Translations under genes and position numbers: made by a program | Origin: Candidatus Fermentibacterota bacterium | Lineage (GTDB): Bacteria > JAFGKV01 | Direction of reading: 5' to 3' | Length of the DNA: 20,806 nucleotides | Assembly: GCA_030620115.1 (NCBI GenBank) | Contig: JAUXFG010000062.1 | Coordinates: 1 to 20,806 of the forward strand | The notes under the pieces: generated by a model | Databases searched by the model: none | The model's input: only the letters and a program-made list of their open reading frames with translations | Told to the model about the DNA's origin: nothing | Part shown: piece by piece, positions 2,027 to 20,276 of the stretch | How the letters are laid out: the number at the start of each line of letters is the position of its first letter | Numbering within the stretch: position 1 is the stretch's first letter

Positions 2027-3445
2027 ATGAAGTTCGTAATCGGATGTGTGACGATTCTTTTGATGGCCATCCTACCGGCAGAGGAGCTTCCCGCGCAGTC
2101 TCCGCCACGTCAGAATCAGATCTGGTTCACTCCGAACGTCGGCAGCGTGGACATGTTAGACCTGTTCAACAATCCGGAACAATGGCCCACCGCCAGATCG
2201 CAGGTCGATGTGTTCAAGTTCTATACGATCTAGGTGGGTTCCGGAGGCTGGAGCTGCGCCGAGAGTCCGAACCAGGCGAACTGCGGAGATAACGACCTTG
2301 AGCACCTGGTGGATGTCCAGGCATTCTCCAAGCTGGGACAGTGGGGTATTGACATCGCTGTCGAGTCGTTTTTCGCCGGTTCCATCATGTCCGTAGATCC
2401 GATCGAATGCTCAACACACGAATATGTATTCTCCCTGTCGCTCGATGGATCCGTAAATGTCATTCAGAACATACAATCGAATGGGGGGACGGTTCGTTAC
2501 CTGGCGATGGATGAGCCTATAAGGCAATGGTACCCTGAATACTACTACATCTACACCGGACAGACAGACCCGAGGCCCTGTCTCGTTGATTCGCTTGGCG
2601 GTTTGGCTGATGAAGTGGCCGCCTATATTCGCCAGATGCAGCAATGGTATCCGTCGATTCCCATTGGACATATCGAGCTCTATCCGGAAGTGGGAGTTGA
2701 TCAGTTCAAGGAGTGGATCTTCGCCCTGGAGGCAAGAGGCGTTTCACTTCCGTTCCTACATATAGATGTCAATGGTCCCCGAGTTGATCAGTATATCCAA
2801 CTCGGATTGGACATCGATGTGGTCGCTGATCTGACGGAACTGAAGTTGTTCCTTGAAGCGCACGGCGTAGCACTCGGCATCATCTTCACCGACATCTATT
2901 GGGGTAGCCAGATCTGGGAAGAAGAGGAATACGTCGATAGCACTTATTACGGACGGACGATGGATTGGCTCAACTTTGTTAATGATGCGAATCTAGAGTA
3001 TAACCATAGTATTTTCCAAAGCTGGGTATTCCCTGTATACACAACCGGATACGGCCCCAACGAGATTCCGATCAATCTCCCTGAGGATGACCCAACCATC
3101 TACAGTCATACGCGGCTGATAAACGAGGCGTTGAGCATTCCTGTGGGTGTGGTGACAAAGCCTTCGAGCGATTCGCCAACGACTGGTGTTCTCCATCAGA
3201 ATTACCCAAATCCATTCAATCCCACCGCCACCATTACTTATGATGTTCCGAAATCGTCTGAGGTATCGCTGAAGGTTTACGATATGCTCGGAAGGGAGAT
3301 TCAGACCATTGTGAGCAATTTCCAGGAGTCGGGGACATATTCTGTGGTTTTTGAGGCGAGAGACCTTCCCAGCGGTGTCTATTTCTACGAGCTGCAAGTT
3401 GGGGAAAGCCTTGTAGCGTCAAAGAAGATGCTGCTCGTGAAGTGA
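2027..3445 (+). pseudogene. Secreted TIM-barrel-like protein with T9SS sorting domain, interrupted by in-frame TAG
   Basis: An ATG at 2027 (AAGGAAGG 6 nt before it) opens a signal peptide (MKFVIGCVTILLMAILPAEE) and 68 residues that stop at TAG (2231-2233). The same frame continues for 403 residues to TGA at 3445, and the sequence reads through smoothly (VFKFYTI, stop, VGSGGWSC). The downstream part has alternating strands and helices with acidic residues, for example YLAMDEP and GHIELYPEVG, suggesting a glycoside-hydrolase-like (beta/alpha) barrel, though no family is recognised. The last 85 or so residues are a classic Por/T9SS type A sorting domain (LHQNYPNPFNPTATITYDVP ... LPSGVYFYELQVG ... 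KKMLLVK). The protein would be exported and anchored outside the cell. A single CAG-to-TAG change would explain the break. GTG at 2234 has no ribosome binding site. TAG also ends normal genes here, so general recoding is unlikely. Confidence 0.75.
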
Positions 3446-13139: not shown

Positions 13140-14834
13140 ATGAACTCCATCCACGCGAGACAAACCAACGGCGCGCGCCATATTCGAGTCGTGTTCAACG
13201 GCGCCGAGATTTCCACCTCGTATGAGACAACGGTCATCGAGCTCCTCGAGCAGAAATCTCATCCGGGCCCCTTCTCCCCTTTGGGAGCCCTGGTCTCGCG
13301 CCGGCTCACGGGGCTCCACTACCCGCTTGTCTCGGACTGCACCGTGGATACGGTTGATTACGGCTCCAAGGAAGGAGCATCGATCTATCGCCGAACCGCC
13401 TCGCTGGTGCTTTATGAAGCGGCCGCCCAGCTGTTCCAAGGCATTCGTGTCAAGATAGGTCAGTCCGTGGACCGCGGCTACTTCTTCAGTCTCAGGATGC
13501 CCGGGGGTAAAGACCCGACTCCGCAGCAAGTCCATGATATCGAAAGAAGGATGAGAGAGATCGTTGCGCACGAAATTCCCCTGGTGCCGGTCCGCATCAC
13601 CGTGGAGGAGGCTATCGAGACCTTCGAGCTGGAGGGGTATGATGAAAAGGCCGACTTACTCAGGACGCTGCCCTACTCCAAGGTATGGTGGATCGATATG
13701 GGGCAATTCAAGGACATTCTCCACGGCCCATTGGCGCCTTCTACCGGTACGATCAGCCTATTCGCAGTGCATGGGTTCGAGGACGGTCTCATCCTCAGAT
13801 TCCCCGACAGGCGTTTTCAGATGCGGGCATTCAAGGGAGCGCAGGAGAAGCTTTTCGCCACGTATAGGGAGACGAGAGCGTGGAATCAGGAGATCGGTGT
13901 CCACAATGTCGGCCAGCTCAACATCGCGGTATTGCGTGATGAAACGCCGGAGATCATACGAATCACCGAAGGCTTCCACGAGAAAAAAATCGTAGGCATT
14001 GCCGACCGGATCGCCGCACGACGTCAAATCATCAGATTGATACTCATCGCCGGCCCATCCTCCTCAGGCAAGACCACATTCACCAAACGTTTGGGTGTGC
14101 AACTGAGAGTGAACGGACTCAGGCCGGTTGCCTTGAGCATGGACAACTACTATGTGGACCGCGAAGAGACAGCGAAAAACCACGACGGCACGTATGACTT
14201 CGAGTCTCTTCAAGCCCTGGATATCGAACTGCTCAACGAACATCTCGCCCGGTTGATGGCAGGCGAGACGGTAGAAACCCCTGTCTTTTCGTTCACCACC
14301 GGAAAGCGGCGACATGACAAGACAATTCCCCTGAGGCTTGGACAAGACCATGTGCTCATCATGGAGGGCATCCACTGCCTCAATGAGAAGATTTCACGAG
14401 CCATCGATCGCACGGCAAAATTCAAGATCTATGTTTCTGCACTCACACAGCTCATCATCGATTCACACAGCAGAATCTTCACCTCGGATACCCGTCTGAT
14501 CAGGAGGATTGTGCGCGACCGCCTGTTCCGGGGATATTCAGCGGAGGCAACCATCAATCAGTGGCCCAGTGTTCGAGCGGGTGAGAACAGGAATATCTTC
14601 CCCTTTCAGGAAGAAGCCGATGTGATGTTCAACTCCGCGTTGGTCTATGAAATGTGTGTGTTGAAAAACTATGCACACCGGTTCCTCCTCACGGTCCCAA
14701 GGAATAGCCCCGCGTATACCGAGGCTCACCGGCTCCTCGCCTTCTTGACCTATTTTGTGTCGATCTTTCCCGAGGAAGTCCCGCAGAACTCTCTGCTCCG
14801 CGAGTTCATCGGCGGCAGTACATTCTCCTACTGA
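13140..14834 (+). CDS. Uridine-kinase-like nucleoside kinase with N-terminal TGS/ThrRS-like region
   Basis: This 564-residue fusion has a TGS-like beta-grasp start (about 14-80, IRVVFNGAEISTSYETTVIE). A segment like the second additional domain of threonyl-tRNA synthetase follows (about 85-230, including RGYFFSLRMPGG and YSKVWWIDMG). The last part is a uridine kinase/phosphoribulokinase-type P-loop domain. Its Walker A is AGPSSSGKTTFTKRL (Lys311), followed by SMDNYYVDREET, the substrate lid region FSFTTGKR, and LIMEGIHCLNE. Proteins of this architecture are found in many anaerobes and are annotated as nucleoside kinases. ATP-dependent phosphorylation of uridine or a related nucleoside is the expected reaction, but the substrate is not fixed by sequence. 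The ribosome site is weak (GGAG 11 nt upstream). It may share a transcript with the upstream phosphorylase. Confidence 0.88.
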   Translation: MNSIHARQTNGARHIRVVFNGAEISTSYETTVIELLEQKSHPGPFSPLGALVSRRLTGLHYPLVSDCTVDTVDYGSKEGASIYRRTASLVLYEAAAQLFQGIRVKIGQSVDRGYFFSLRMPGGKDPTPQQVHDIERRMREIVAHEIPLVPVRITVEEAIETFELEGYDEKADLLRTLPYSKVWWIDMGQFKDILHGPLAPSTGTISLFAVHGFEDGLILRFPDRRFQMRAFKGAQEKLFATYRETRAWNQEIGVHNVGQLNIAVLRDETPEIIRITEGFHEKKIVGIADRIAARRQIIRLILIAGPSSSGKTTFTKRLGVQLRVNGLRPVALSMDNYYVDREETAKNHDGTYDFESLQALDIELLNEHLARLMAGETVETPVFSFTTGKRRHDKTIPLRLGQDHVLIMEGIHCLNEKISRAIDRTAKFKIYVSALTQLIIDSHSRIFTSDTRLIRRIVRDRLFRGYSAEATINQWPSVRAGENRNIFPFQEEADVMFNSALVYEMCVLKNYAHRFLLTVPRNSPAYTEAHRLLAFLTYFVSIFPEEVPQNSLLREFIGGSTFSY

Positions 14835-15251: not shown

Positions 15252-16508
15252 ATGAACGAGCTGCTCTCCCCCTCTGCTGCCCTGAGAGAAGCATGGCGTT
15301 GTCTTCACTGTTGGGACGCCCCCTGCACCGCGGCGTGCCCGGTCCACGTTCCTATCCCAGAGTTCATCGCACGGCTGAGGGCCGACGATATCGTAGGGGC
15401 GGAGGAACTCGTTCGCCAGGCAAACCCCCTCATCAGCAGCTGTGGTGATATCTGTCCCGACGAAGATTACTGTTCACGGGCCTGCATATTGAAAGACGTG
15501 GAGGGTTCCATCCGCGTGCGGGAACTCCACGGGTTCGTCACCGAATCAGCCCACGCGCCGTGGCAGCGCTGGAAGCCGTGGAAGGCAGAGCGGGTAGCCG
15601 TGGTAGGCGCGGGTCCTGCAGGTATTGCCTGTGCCCGTGAGCTTGCGCGTTTTGGATACCATGTGTTTGTATTCGAGAAAGACAACGCCCCTGGAGGCAT
15701 GCTCCGCTATTCCCTTGCGGCTGATCGGTTTCCCGTTCGGATCCTTGATCAAGACCTGGCCCTCATGCAGGGTTTGGGCATCACATGGAAAACCGGCGCT
15801 TGTGTCGACTCCCTGAAATCGCTTTTGGATTCCTACGACGCCGTGTTCTACGGCACCGGCCGTCATGAGGATGCCACCCTGGGGCTAGCCGACGAAGAAT
15901 CATTTCTTTTCAGTGGCTTATCCTTCTTGCGCGCCTGGAGAACGGGATCCGGCGAGAGCCTTGCGGGAAAGGATGTGGTGATCATTGGCGGTGGCAACGT
16001 ATCCCTCGATGTCGCCTCCACAGCCGTACATGCAGGGGCAGAGAGCGTTGTCTTGATATACCGGCGCGGGCCCAAGGAAATGCCTGTCTGGAAACGGGAG
16101 CGGGAACACGTGGAAGGCAAGGGAGTCAGATTCGAGTTCTGCACACGCCCTACAGGCTTCATCACAGAAGGAGGGGTGCTCAAGGCGCTCCAATGCCAGC
16201 GCACGAGACTCATCGACACCGGGAAGTCGCGGCTCACACCACAGGATGTGGAGGGCTATGATTTTCTCCTGCCGGCTGATCTGGTGATTGGATCCGTGGG
16301 CATGAATGCCTCCAAGGATGAAGACGTGGAGCTAGGGTGGAAGGACAAAGCATATCTTCCCGTAGATGAGAATATGCGGACCAAAGAAAAGAGGCTTTTT
16401 GCCGGTGGCGACTTGGTCTCGGGCGAGGGGACGGTGGTGGCTGCCCAGTCTCACGGGATACGGGCGGCAAGAGCCATCCACGCCTTATTGCAGGAGGTGC
16501 GGTCATGA
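15252..16508 (+). CDS. preT: NAD(P)/FAD oxidoreductase subunit, PreT-like (GltD family)
   Basis: The 418-residue protein matches the electron-input subunit of dihydropyrimidine dehydrogenase. Two cysteine clusters near the N-terminus (Cys17, 20, 25, 29 and Cys64, 68, 74, 78) bind [4Fe-4S] centres. An FAD Rossmann motif follows (VAVVGAGPAG, 115-124), then an NAD(P) motif (VVIIGGGNVSLDVAS, about 236-250), YRRGPKEMP, and the second FAD loop FAGGDLVSGEGTVVAA. Electrons from NAD(P)H would pass to the next gene product. The ATG is preceded by a full AGGAGGT at 15242-15248. The stop overlaps the preA start by 4 bp (ATGA), so the two subunits are coupled. It could equally be called GltD-like alone, but the partner fixes the PreT reading. 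It corresponds to the middle part of E. coli YgfK. Confidence 0.87.
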   Translation: MNELLSPSAALREAWRCLHCWDAPCTAACPVHVPIPEFIARLRADDIVGAEELVRQANPLISSCGDICPDEDYCSRACILKDVEGSIRVRELHGFVTESAHAPWQRWKPWKAERVAVVGAGPAGIACARELARFGYHVFVFEKDNAPGGMLRYSLAADRFPVRILDQDLALMQGLGITWKTGACVDSLKSLLDSYDAVFYGTGRHEDATLGLADEESFLFSGLSFLRAWRTGSGESLAGKDVVIIGGGNVSLDVASTAVHAGAESVVLIYRRGPKEMPVWKREREHVEGKGVRFEFCTRPTGFITEGGVLKALQCQRTRLIDTGKSRLTPQDVEGYDFLLPADLVIGSVGMNASKDEDVELGWKDKAYLPVDENMRTKEKRLFAGGDLVSGEGTVVAAQSHGIRAARAIHALLQEVRS

Positions 16509-17734
16509 CCGGCGCATCACAGAGCAAACGGGGGCCTGAGCCTCCGCTCGATCTCTCGGTCAGCTTCCTGGGCATCGAACTCGAGAACCCCTTTATTCTC
16601 TCCGCGGCTCCGTCTACCGACGAGCTGGACATAGCATGCGCAGGGCTCGATGCGGGGTGGGCTGGCGTGATCCTGAAAACCACCAGTGTTGAGGGAAATC
16701 CGGTCTCCCTGGCATACCCCATGATGTCTACCATGGACTGGGCGGGCAGACGATTGGTGGGCATGGGCAACATCGATCTCATATCGGAGCACCACATCGA
16801 CGTGGTGGAGAAACGTGTGGCGATCCTCAAATCCGAGTTTGGATCCAAGCTTATCGCTGCCAGCATTATGGGGCAGAAACAAGAGGACTGGCAGAGCCTC
16901 GTGCAGCGACTGAAGGATGCAGGCGTAGACCTCATCGAGTGCAGTTTCTCGTGCCCGCAGGGCTCCATGGGCGAGCGCCCAGGCGCCATGTTGGCCCAGT
17001 CTGCCGAGGCTACGGAGAAAGTCACTGGATGGGTAAAGGAAGCCGCGGGAGATCTTCCTGTGTTGATCAAGATCACACCTCAGGTCACTGATGTGGTGGA
17101 GATCGCCCAGGCGGTGAAGAATGGAGGCGCTGATGGGCTCACCGCATCGAATTCCGTGCCGGCGCTTATGGGAGTCGATATCGAGACCTTTGTTCCAGCC
17201 CCCTCCTTGGATCAATATTCCACCTATTCGGGATTGACCGGACCTGCAATCAAACCTTTGACACTGCGAACCGTTGCGGAGATCGCGCGGCATGTCGATA
17301 TTCCCATCAGCGGCAATGGCGGCATCTCCACGTGGAAGGATGCGGTGGAGCTCTTTTCAGTGGGCGCCCGGAATATCCAGATCTGTACCGCGGTCATGCA
17401 TTATGGTTTCCGAATCGTGGATGACCTCAAGTCCGGCCTGTCGAACTATATGAAACGAAGGGGTTTCGGCCGTGTGTCTGATATCGTTGGCAAGGCTCTC
17501 CCGCATATCGTAGATCACGACAGCCTCCCCAGGAGAACGGTCAAGAGCCGTATCAAGAGTGATCTCTGTATCGGTTGTGGCGTCTGTTACGTGGCCTGCA
17601 GAGACGGCGGGCATCTGGCCATCAGCATGGATGACCGACAGCCGGTGGTGGACGACGACAAGTGTGTAGGGTGTGGCCTCTGCATGCTCACATGCCCCGT
17701 GAGTGACTGCATCAGCATGGAGGTGATCACATGA
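16505..17734 (+). CDS. preA: Dihydropyrimidine-dehydrogenase-like catalytic subunit, PreA-like
   Basis: The 409-residue protein has a class 1 DHOD-type FMN barrel (about 14-340): LENPFILSAAPST, the catalytic loop CSFSCPQGSMGERPG with Cys150 at the expected acid position, LIKITPQVTD, TASNSVPALMG, and the phosphate-binding ISGNGGI / ARNIQICTAVMHYG. The C-terminus carries two [4Fe-4S] ferredoxin motifs (CIGCGVCYVACRD and CVGCGLCMLTCPVSDC). It would reduce a ring C=C, or run in reverse, using electrons from PreT. Compared with dihydropyrimidine dehydrogenase as I remember it, the loop Asn before SCP is Ser (SFSCP) and the upstream N-rich loop (SYNKNDW) is shortened to GQKQEDW. The substrate may therefore not be uracil. 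ATGA overlaps link it to both neighbours. Confidence 0.86.
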   Translation: MTGASQSKRGPEPPLDLSVSFLGIELENPFILSAAPSTDELDIACAGLDAGWAGVILKTTSVEGNPVSLAYPMMSTMDWAGRRLVGMGNIDLISEHHIDVVEKRVAILKSEFGSKLIAASIMGQKQEDWQSLVQRLKDAGVDLIECSFSCPQGSMGERPGAMLAQSAEATEKVTGWVKEAAGDLPVLIKITPQVTDVVEIAQAVKNGGADGLTASNSVPALMGVDIETFVPAPSLDQYSTYSGLTGPAIKPLTLRTVAEIARHVDIPISGNGGISTWKDAVELFSVGARNIQICTAVMHYGFRIVDDLKSGLSNYMKRRGFGRVSDIVGKALPHIVDHDSLPRRTVKSRIKSDLCIGCGVCYVACRDGGHLAISMDDRQPVVDDDKCVGCGLCMLTCPVSDCISMEVIT

Positions 17735-19044
17735 AGCTGTATGCCAATGCGCTGCTTATCACCAATGACAGCGAGAATCGGGTCATCCAACCGGGTTGTA
17801 TGGCAGTGACGAATGGACGCATTTCCTATGTAGGCAAGGAAACCGAGGGAAACTTCCCCCCCGAGGTCGAACGCCTAGATATGGGAGGCAGAGTCTTGAT
17901 GCCCGGGCAGATTCTCGGCCATACGCACTTGTACAGTTTCCTCGCGCGCGGTCTTGCTCCGGAAGGGGCGCCGCAAAATTTCGTGGAACAACTGCAACAG
18001 ATGTGGTGGCGTCTCGATCGCGCCTTGAAGCTCGAGGATGTGTACTGGAGCGCAAAGGGTGCGTGTCTCGAGGCGCTACTCTCGGGCACCACCACGGTGA
18101 TCGATCACCACGCCAGTCCATCCTGTATCGAAGGAAGCCTTGAGGCGCTGGCAAAGGGCATTGCGGAGATCGGTATCCGCGGGGCCCTGGCCTATGAAAT
18201 CACCGATCGCAACGGCTTTGAGGGCGCGCAGCAGGGGATCGAGGAGAATCTCCGGGGCATGGAGATCGCCAAAGAAATGCCCGGCTTTCTCGCCGCACGC
18301 ATCGGTCTCCACGCATCATTTACTCTGAGTGATAAGACGCTGGATGCAGTGGCGGAGAAAATGCCTCGGATCGGCATTCATATCCATGTGGCTGAAGACT
18401 GGGAGGATGTGGATCTCAGCCGTGAGCTGCATGGAGGAGGCGTGTTGCAGCGCTTGGGCATCCGTGGACTTCTTGATGAACAGAGCATCCTCGTGCACGG
18501 CGTGCATCTCGAAGAGGATGAGCTCCACCGGCTTGCGGAGTCGGGGGCATTCCTCGTGCACAATCCTCGCTCGAATATGAACAACGGTGTTGGCGCCGCC
18601 AACTTGATGGCATTTGAGGCCGCGGGCGTCAATCTCGCCATGGGGAGCGACGGTATGGGGCCTGATCCCGCCCCTGAAGCCATGGCTGCCCTCCTGCTGC
18701 AGCGCCACCGCGCGGGCAGCCCCTCGGTTGCGTGGCCTCTCATACAGAAGATCTACTGTGAGGGCAACCCGCGGCTTGCGACCCGAACATTCGGCATTCC
18801 CCTTGGGAAACTCGAAGCCGGAGCTGCGGCCGATTTCATAGTACGGGATTACCAGCCTCCTACACCGCTGAATCAGGACAACTGGTGGGGACACTTCTTG
18901 TTTGGTTTGGCCTCGACGCCTGTGGACATGGTGGTAGTAGCCGGTGATACTCTGGTGAGCCACGGGCAACCGGTCAATCTCGACGCAGGACAGGTCTGGC
19001 ATGAATGCCGACGCCGGGCACACGACCTATGGGCGCGCTGGTGA
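17731..19044 (+). CDS. ssnA: SsnA-like amidohydrolase/aminohydrolase
   Basis: The 437-residue protein aligns well, from memory, with E. coli SsnA. The metal HxH is in GQILGHTHLYSFLARG. MWWRLDRALKLEDVYWSAKG and TTTVIDHHASPSCIEGSLEA are near-identical family landmarks. The later metal and catalytic positions are in GIHIHVAEDWED, ILVHGVHLEEDEL, LVHNPRSNMNNGVG and AMGSDGMGPDP. It belongs to the amidohydrolase superfamily, which deaminates or opens heterocyclic amines. SsnA's own reaction is not firmly assigned; it was once named for a putative selenium role and its locus is linked to anaerobic purine use. It overlaps preA by 4 bp (ATGA) and the downstream PLP enzyme by 4 bp or more, so it belongs to one operon. 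Confidence 0.87.
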   Translation: MKLYANALLITNDSENRVIQPGCMAVTNGRISYVGKETEGNFPPEVERLDMGGRVLMPGQILGHTHLYSFLARGLAPEGAPQNFVEQLQQMWWRLDRALKLEDVYWSAKGACLEALLSGTTTVIDHHASPSCIEGSLEALAKGIAEIGIRGALAYEITDRNGFEGAQQGIEENLRGMEIAKEMPGFLAARIGLHASFTLSDKTLDAVAEKMPRIGIHIHVAEDWEDVDLSRELHGGGVLQRLGIRGLLDEQSILVHGVHLEEDELHRLAESGAFLVHNPRSNMNNGVGAANLMAFEAAGVNLAMGSDGMGPDPAPEAMAALLLQRHRAGSPSVAWPLIQKIYCEGNPRLATRTFGIPLGKLEAGAAADFIVRDYQPPTPLNQDNWWGHFLFGLASTPVDMVVVAGDTLVSHGQPVNLDAGQVWHECRRRAHDLWARW

Positions 19045-20276
19045 CTTTGCTTCGCTGCGTGACATGTGGAGCTGAATACGACCCACGCGGCGACCATCCA
19101 CTCACCTGCCCGGTCTGCGGCCTCGATCGCGGGACATTGGACTACGAGTATGATCTCCCGCAATTGGCCGCCGATTGGGCAAAACCCGAGGACATTCACG
19201 CCGGCATAGGGGCTTGGCTTCCAATCCTTCCCATCTCCTCTGCCGGCTCTCTCCCTCCGCTCCCTCTCGGTCCTACACCTCTCATACACGCCACACGCTT
19301 GGCAGCTCACCTGGGAATCAAGGCCCTCCGGCTCAAGCTCGACTCAATGCTCCCCAGTGCGTCGCTCAAAGACCGCGCCTCAGCCCTCGCCCTGGCTCAT
19401 GCGAAGGAACGAGGCGTGACGATCATTGTGGCGGCATCCACGGGAAATGCCGCGTCCTCGTTGGCAACATTGGCGGCATCAAGCGGCCAGAAAGCGGTCC
19501 TATTGGTACCTGCCGACGCTCCCCCGGCGAAGCTCTGTCAGATCGCCATGCACGGAGGCATCCTCGTGCCTCTGAAGACAAGCTACGACCATGCCTTTGA
19601 TCTCTCCATGGAGCTCGCCGCCCGAGAGGGCTGGTACGTGCGCAGTACCGCAGTGAATCCCGTGCTTTCGGAAGGGAAGAAGACCTCGGCGCTGGAGACG
19701 ACCTTTCAGCTCGATTGGAATCCCCGAGACCCATGGTTCGTGAGCGTGGGTGACGGCTGTATCTTCGGTTCTTTCTACAAGGGACTGAGAGAGCTTAAGA
19801 CGCTCGGCTGGATCGCCGAGATGCCGCCACTTTTCGGTGTTCAGGCCTCCGGCGCCGCACCCTTGGCCAATTGCTGGGAGCAGGAGAAAAAGGAGATCAC
19901 CCCCTTGGAAGAGATCTCCACGTACGCTGACAGCATCGCAGTAGGGCACCCCCGGGACTGGGTGAAAGCGTTGCGCGCCGCAAGGGAGAGTCACGGACAA
20001 ATCATTGCCGCCCCTGACGATCTGATCCGAGATGCAGCTTCAATGCTGGCAAAACAGGCGGGGGTATTGGCAGAACCAGCCGCCGCCGCATCACTGGCCG
20101 GCCTTCTGATCCTCAAAGAGGAAGGCCGCCTCGGGCGAGATGACAGCGCCGTGATTTTCATCACCGGCCATGGCCTAAAAGATCAGGCAGCCCTCACCCA
20201 ATCAGTGACATTCCCCGATGCCATCGCCCCGGATCCGTGCCAAATCCTTCAGTTCATCAAATCCGCAATTACCTGA
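19041..20276 (+). CDS. Zinc-ribbon threonine synthase-like PLP enzyme (fold type II)
   Basis: The protein has about 411 residues. An N-terminal zinc ribbon (LRCVTCGAEYDP ... CPVCG) is followed by a tryptophan-synthase-beta-type fold. It has the PLP lysine in PSASLKDRASA (Lys110), the substrate loop AASTGNAASSLA, the phosphate-binding region FVSVGDGCIFGSFYKG, and the C-terminal ITGHGLKDQAA typical of threonine synthase. Starts at 19005, 19029 (ATG) and 19041 (GTG) are possible. 19041 is chosen because it gives the same 4-bp overlap (GTGA) as the other operon junctions and the ribbon begins at once; its ribosome site is weak. By sequence it is a threonine synthase family member. In this operon a beta-elimination or ammonia-lyase role, like that of YgeX, is an inference. 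No other threonine gene is nearby. Confidence 0.8.
   Translation: MTLLRCVTCGAEYDPRGDHPLTCPVCGLDRGTLDYEYDLPQLAADWAKPEDIHAGIGAWLPILPISSAGSLPPLPLGPTPLIHATRLAAHLGIKALRLKLDSMLPSASLKDRASALALAHAKERGVTIIVAASTGNAASSLATLAASSGQKAVLLVPADAPPAKLCQIAMHGGILVPLKTSYDHAFDLSMELAAREGWYVRSTAVNPVLSEGKKTSALETTFQLDWNPRDPWFVSVGDGCIFGSFYKGLRELKTLGWIAEMPPLFGVQASGAAPLANCWEQEKKEITPLEEISTYADSIAVGHPRDWVKALRAARESHGQIIAAPDDLIRDAASMLAKQAGVLAEPAAAASLAGLLILKEEGRLGRDDSAVIFITGHGLKDQAALTQSVTFPDAIAPDPCQILQFIKSAIT

Follow-up and report, generated by a model that had tools for sequence, protein, structure and literature searches.

Here, we describe a 20,806-nucleotide stretch of DNA (the window; contig JAUXFG010000062.1 of assembly GCA_030620115.1) from a Candidatus Fermentibacterota bacterium, which carries a four-gene operon encoding a PreT-like and a PreA-like reductase subunit, an SsnA amidohydrolase and a threonine-synthase-like (ThrC-like) enzyme dependent on pyridoxal phosphate (PLP). 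This operon probably encodes the ring-opening core of reductive urate degradation together with its terminal lyase, the latter role falling to the PLP enzyme. Gene order, protein families, conservation, clade membership, residue changes and co-occurrence are direct observations. The window is one entire contig of a 4.1-Mb genome (G000; 296 contigs, 98% complete).

Li et al. 2025 (PMC12507026) reconstituted the reductive urate pathway, in which XdhD turns urate into 2,8-dioxopurine ("yanthine"), YgfK and SsnA convert 2,8-dioxopurine into ureidomethyl-hydantoin (C. difficile uses UacX for YgfK), HyuA, YgeW/UacY and YgeY lead on to 2,3-diaminopropionate, and the PLP enzyme YgeX makes pyruvate in the last step. 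In the same study, SsnA serves as the marker of the pathway, its immediate hydrolysis is proposed to pull the unfavourable YgfK reduction forward, and an F420-dependent reductase is proposed for Chloroflexota clusters. The marker used for YgeX in their neighbourhood survey was PF00291, so that such a survey would count ThrC-like genes as YgeX. Percudani (PMC12990295) counts both the sequence of the ureido steps and their stereochemistry among the open questions. The window genome resembles the known systems (E. coli xdhD-ygfK-ssnA-hyuA-ygeW-ygeY-ygeX; Clostridioides difficile uacX/uacY) in combining SsnA, a PreA-type flavin reductase and XdhD-, HyuA-, YgeW- and YgeY-type genes. However, its reductase is split into PreT and PreA and belongs to a subfamily other than YgfK or UacX, its genes are spread over contigs, and a ThrC-like enzyme is found instead of YgeX.

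A first-pass annotation of the window had described a PreT-PreA-SsnA-threonine synthase-like operon with overlaps of about 4 bp, bringing reductase, amidohydrolase and PLP chemistry together. Coordinates and profiles agree with this description and bear out the families (Table 1), and all three overlaps are 4 bp long, reading ATGA (PreT/PreA), ATGA (PreA/SsnA) and GTGA (SsnA/PLP). The third depends on the GTG start at 19041, which agrees with the N-termini of the PLP protein's relatives; the mechanical list of open reading frames instead has an ATG at 19005 (a 40-bp overlap with SsnA). Our sample of the phylum comprises the window genome and two sisters of another genus. The order PreT-PreA-SsnA-PLP is kept in all three, with sister proteins 60-78% identical to those of the window, which argues against chance adjacency.

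Table 1. Genes of the operon, its conserved neighbour and a second PLP protein (window positions unless another locus is named)
Feature	Position	Strand	Basis and remarks
PreT-like protein, 418 aa	15252-16508	+	ATG start; profiles Fer4_20 (N-terminal Fe-S domain) and Pyr_redox_2 (FAD/NAD(P)-binding oxidoreductase)
PreA-like protein, 409 aa	16505-17734	+	ATG start; profiles DHO_dh and Fer4_21
SsnA amidohydrolase, 437 aa	17731-19044	+	ATG start; family profile and relatives
ThrC-like PLP enzyme, 411 aa	19041-20276	+	GTG start; PALP profile; candidate YgeX replacement
TGS-uridine-kinase-like nucleoside kinase	13140-14834	+	Profile; neighbour kept in the sisters (L054 5829-7493)
P488, 488-aa PLP protein	L049 836-2299 (G000 contig C159)		CBS/CysK-like fold (cystathionine beta-synthase/cysteine synthase)

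The reductase is encoded by separate PreT and PreA genes, as expected from the first-pass view of a split YgfK-like enzyme. PreT is 31% identical to E. coli PreT and likewise 31% identical to the corresponding part of YgfK. PreA (39% identity to E. coli PreA) has a flavin mononucleotide (FMN) barrel, a loop (ECSFSCPQG) in which the catalytic cysteine is retained, and two 4Fe-4S sites. It passes the NCBIfam model PRK08318 for NAD-dependent dihydropyrimidine dehydrogenase (444.6 bits versus a cut-off of 335), a model that cannot tell the uracil-type and SsnA-linked substrate groups apart. The cysteine loop and Fe-S sites are shared with E. coli PreTA and mammalian dihydropyrimidine dehydrogenase (DPD), and the two-subunit layout with the E. 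coli enzyme, but the window PreA differs from both in its tree placement and at one active-site position. In the PreA tree, it joins reductases encoded adjacent to SsnA (support 100/99), among them a Coprothermobacterota PreA to which it is 55% identical, while the uracil-type PreA proteins of E. coli, Parabacteroides, Burkholderia, Sinorhizobium, Thalassospira and Deinococcus stand apart (97/92). The position in question is Asn668 of pig DPD, which we take to be a substrate contact: it is serine in the window PreA and in 22 of 23 SsnA-linked reductases (one differs), including distant UacX-like ones, versus asparagine in seven of seven pyrimidine-type references. A docking paper on human DPYD names Asn609, Asn736, Thr737 and Cys671. 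Given the tree placement and the change of Asn668 to serine, uracil is an unlikely substrate of PreTA, and the first-pass preference for a purine gains weight. Judged from its sequence, PreTA is best described as a split YgfK-like reductase of a subfamily that is neither YgfK nor UacX. The adjoining SsnA is 39% identical to its E. coli namesake, passes PRK07203 (452 bits versus 444) and narrowly misses TIGR03314 (442.3 versus 455.5).

The PLP enzyme matches PALP, and its nearest family is threonine synthase, although it stays below the cut-offs of both PRK08197 (225 bits versus 303) and TIGR00260 (165.8 versus 167.1). Threonine synthases are also the nearest solved structures to its predicted structure (predicted local distance difference test score, pLDDT, 92.6): the model aligns with Thermus thermophilus ThrC at Z 42.2 (root-mean-square deviation 1.9 over 319 residues; ~33% identity in the structural alignment), and with the YgeX structure 5YGR at Z 32.9. 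The fold (type II) and the invariant catalytic lysine, set in a KDR motif, are those of class II threonine synthases (T. thermophilus 1UIM/1V7C, Bacillus subtilis 6CGQ), and the N-terminus carries four invariant cysteines. In the tree, however, the protein falls into a single ThrC-like clade separate from threonine synthases (support 100/97, present in 100% of 200 bootstrap trees). This tree was built without E. coli YgeX and class I ThrC, whose branches of ~10 changes per site had spoiled a first one. Members of the clade share the signature KDRA[ST], STGNA, no arginine before EGK[KR], and VGDG, with few exceptions (arginine one position later in genomes G020 and G031; KDRAA in G027). The substrate phosphate of T. 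thermophilus ThrC is reportedly bound by Asn154, Arg160 and Asn188 (complex 1V7C; Omi et al. 2003). At these sites, the window protein has Thr, Leu and Asp (numbering counted on the 1UIM alignment), and the phosphate-site arginine is absent from every clade member examined.

Homoserine dehydrogenase (PF00742) was found in none of the three phylum genomes versus 14 of 14 control genomes. The first-pass annotation had left room for the PLP enzyme being the organism's sole biosynthetic threonine synthase. The genome indeed has no other ThrC-like gene, but the missing homoserine dehydrogenase and the altered phosphate site make a biosynthetic threonine synthase very unlikely. The suggestion that the PLP family differs from that of YgeX is upheld: comparing the window protein with E. 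coli YgeX by BLAST gave nothing at E 1e-5, and the aligned active-site motifs differ. What the two have in common is a fold-type II architecture and the last position within their gene sets.

Candidates for the remaining steps lie elsewhere in the genome. An XdhD-like protein on contig C144 (L158), 38.5% identical to E. coli XdhD and accompanied by 2Fe-2S and YgfM-like partners, scores under the cut-off of each family model; a like set with YgfM-like and 2Fe-2S neighbours occurs in sister G001. YgeY is above its cut-off of 321.5 bits in all three phylum genomes (484.6 bits in G000). A HyuA homologue on contig C253 is 37% identical to E. coli HyuA and reaches 378.6 bits versus the D-hydantoinase cut-off of 393.25. 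Each phylum genome has one protein of the ornithine transcarbamylase (OTCase) family; that of G001 has its best scores with the YgeW models, yet below their cut-offs, and shares 50-54% identity with the YgeW-like proteins of other urate clusters. YgeX was not found in G000, where the PALP proteins are just three: the operon PLP enzyme, a D-cysteine-desulfhydrase-like protein (named by eye) and P488. The pathway therefore appears near-complete but scattered, and the absence of YgeX makes it a variant that would work like the urate pathway without being a full member. The first-pass idea of a stripped-down, parallel pathway thus finds no support, since candidates for the other steps lie on further contigs of this genome and the pathway has been published. 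We also noticed xanthine dehydrogenase (XDH) subunits by FdrA-like, DUF1116-like and cyclase-like proteins (named by eye) on contig C5 (L156 1899-9858) and at L163, possibly another carbamoyl-releasing heterocycle pathway. FdrA/DUF1116 was considered as a YgeW substitute and rejected, as none lies near any of the 93 SsnA loci introduced below.

The linkage of SsnA with a ThrC-like enzyme extends well beyond this phylum. Searching genome contigs with the single window SsnA returned nothing, while a three-sequence alignment returned 216 candidates, 80 of which were kept. In 45 of the 93 SsnA loci considered, from Bacteroidota, Bipolaricaulota, Acidobacteriota, Spirochaetota, Thermotogota, Bacillota, Eisenbacteria, Effluviviacota and others, a ThrC-like PLP gene lies nearby; YgeX does so in two, and no locus has both. 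Together with the sister operons, these loci answer the concern that the adjacency might be peculiar to the window genome. As a control for bias in locus collection, 60 whole genomes were searched separately, calling clade members at E < 1e-60 (a clear gap separates them from the next matches near 1e-36). The clade occurs in 10 of the 13 SsnA-bearing genomes versus 0 of 47 others (Fisher p ~4e-9, uncorrected for relatedness), and one of the three SsnA genomes without it (G024) has YgeX within its SsnA cluster. Overall, the clade members sampled come from SsnA-bearing genomes of about nine bacterial phyla and from haloarchaea (one haloarchaeon not checked for SsnA).

A second PLP family follows the same distribution. 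The profile search with P488 gave weak NCBIfam matches to cysteine synthase, far under the cut-off, with no specific model among the matches, and in the PDB it lies closest to cystathionine beta-synthase and cysteine synthases (Z ~30). P488 is present in 10 of the 60 genomes, precisely those with the ThrC-like clade, and at 21 SsnA loci, 19 of which also have the ThrC-like gene (19 of the 45 PLP-bearing loci). It is also found on Bosea and Rhizobium plasmids with no SsnA nearby, the Bosea copy lying near RidA and M20-peptidase genes. In both sisters, P488 and the nucleoside kinase lie directly upstream of PreT on the same strand, so that P488, kinase, PreT, PreA, SsnA and PLP may form one six-gene operon there. 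The pairing of P488 with the ThrC-like clade suggests a possible two-enzyme solution to the stereochemistry of the pathway, for example one enzyme per stereoisomer.

Haloarchaeal plasmids carry clade members annotated as thrC or "threonine synthase". On Haloarcula marismortui pNG700 (L227), the gene lies among those for SsnA-like and HyuA-like amidohydrolases, an NCS2 permease, an LLM-class (F420-type) oxidoreductase, a D-aminoacylase (UacY type), a carbamoylase-family hydrolase and XDH subunits. Haloterrigena turkmenica pHTUR01 has the gene in a like cluster (SsnA-like, HyuA-like, D-aminoacylase, XDH, LLM oxidoreductase), and in Haloprofundus it overlaps an M20-peptidase gene by 4 bp. Two of the three haloarchaeal loci (L227, L230, L231) thus place a thrC-annotated gene within a urate-type cluster with an LLM oxidoreductase. 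In light of the F420-dependent reductase proposed by Li et al., one can view this set as a complete pathway in which the ThrC-like enzyme stands in for YgeX. These clusters are possibly an archaeal version of the urate pathway, and the thrC labels are likely misannotations.

The substrate and the individual reactions, most of all the one assigned to the PLP enzyme, are inferred from these data as follows. The XdhD-like molybdenum enzyme, encoded elsewhere, would reduce urate to 2,8-dioxopurine. PreT would oxidise NAD(P)H and hand the electrons, by way of Fe-S clusters, to PreA; the FMN barrel of PreA would then dearomatise the pyrimidine ring. SsnA would at once hydrolyse the reduced ring, drawing the unfavourable reduction forward, a role with which the coupling of the genes fits. 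HyuA-, YgeW- and YgeY-type enzymes, also encoded elsewhere, would open the second ring and remove two ureido groups. Finally, the ThrC-like enzyme may take the part that YgeX has in E. coli, splitting 2,3-diaminopropionate by beta-elimination into pyruvate and ammonia.

Several observations weigh against this scheme. The XdhD-, HyuA-, YgeW- and YgeY-like genes all lie off the operon's contig, and the HyuA and YgeW homologues score below curated cut-offs. The XDH family is broad in substrate, and the genome encodes four MoCoBD proteins. Most SsnA loci were collected by SsnA similarity, which biases the linkage counts, and the 60 genomes are phylogenetically non-independent (three belong to one family). 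P488, with its matching distribution, could be the actual lyase. The most serious competitor, which we regard as unlikely but worth keeping in view, leaves the pathway in place and changes its end: the ThrC-like enzyme might eliminate urea directly from albizziin (2-amino-3-ureidopropionate), or share the last step with P488 (e.g. a racemase and a lyase for D-/L-diaminopropionate), the pair replacing YgeX. The shared genomes and loci of the two families, their common strand in the sisters and the open questions on ureido-cleavage order and stereochemistry all speak for such an altered ending. However, YgeY is retained, though there would be no need for it if urea were released from albizziin, and the haloarchaeal plasmid clusters have the ThrC-like gene while no haloarchaeal P488 was found among plasmids (chromosomes not searched).

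We consider it improbable that the same reductive chemistry acts on another heterocycle, such as a hydantoin, a modified purine or a different ring. The three additional XDH-family proteins of the genome, one of them by the FdrA/DUF1116/cyclase-like genes, would suit that view, but nearly every urate step has a candidate in the genome, and elsewhere the PLP clade occurs in urate-type clusters that are almost complete. Ordinary pyrimidine catabolism, with PreTA as a uracil/thymine dehydrogenase and SsnA substituting for dihydropyrimidinase, is more doubtful by far: the match to the NCBIfam PreA model and the identity to E. coli PreA are outweighed by the serine at position 668, the tree placement, an SsnA linkage that spans phyla, and an operon with neither dihydropyrimidinase nor beta-ureidopropionase. 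Hardly any credence is left for a biosynthetic threonine synthase that landed in the operon by chance, despite its nearest family and fold and its being the sole ThrC-like gene; the changes at three phosphate-site residues, the separate clade and the homoserine dehydrogenase counts all run against it. Reductive urate degradation with the ThrC-like enzyme as terminal lyase therefore remains the reading we favour.

Around the operon, the order GlgP, nucleoside kinase, PreT, PreA, SsnA, PLP is common to all three phylum genomes, with the gap between kinase and PreT being 417 bp in the window and ~40 bp in both sisters. Elsewhere in the window, we noted what looks by eye like a MazF-type toxin with a CopG-like antitoxin (565-1171, - strand), a protein with a sorting-signal-like C-terminal domain (YPNPFNP...; 2234-3445) as in type IX secretion cargo, and, close to the contig end (20500-20640), a repeat-like sequence (GTCATTGCGAGGAGGG...), perhaps a dispersed repeat that caused the assembly break.

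The pathway itself is already published; what appears to be new is the split PreTA-type reductase and the non-orthologous replacement of the terminal lyase. In the sampled reductases, residue 668 split SsnA-linked from uracil-type enzymes, and it could help in sorting genes labelled PreA. The NCBIfam thrC model accepts a haloarchaeal clade member (231.4 bits versus a cut-off of 167.1), and threonine prototrophy could therefore be wrongly inferred. On balance, we lean towards the ThrC-like clade, alone or with P488, being a new family that takes over from YgeX at the end of urate breakdown in about nine bacterial phyla and in haloarchaea. It would then offer a missing-enzyme candidate for urate clusters without YgeX, and would show the reductive urate pathway of 2025 to exist outside the gut as well, in many uncultured phyla and in cultured haloarchaea.

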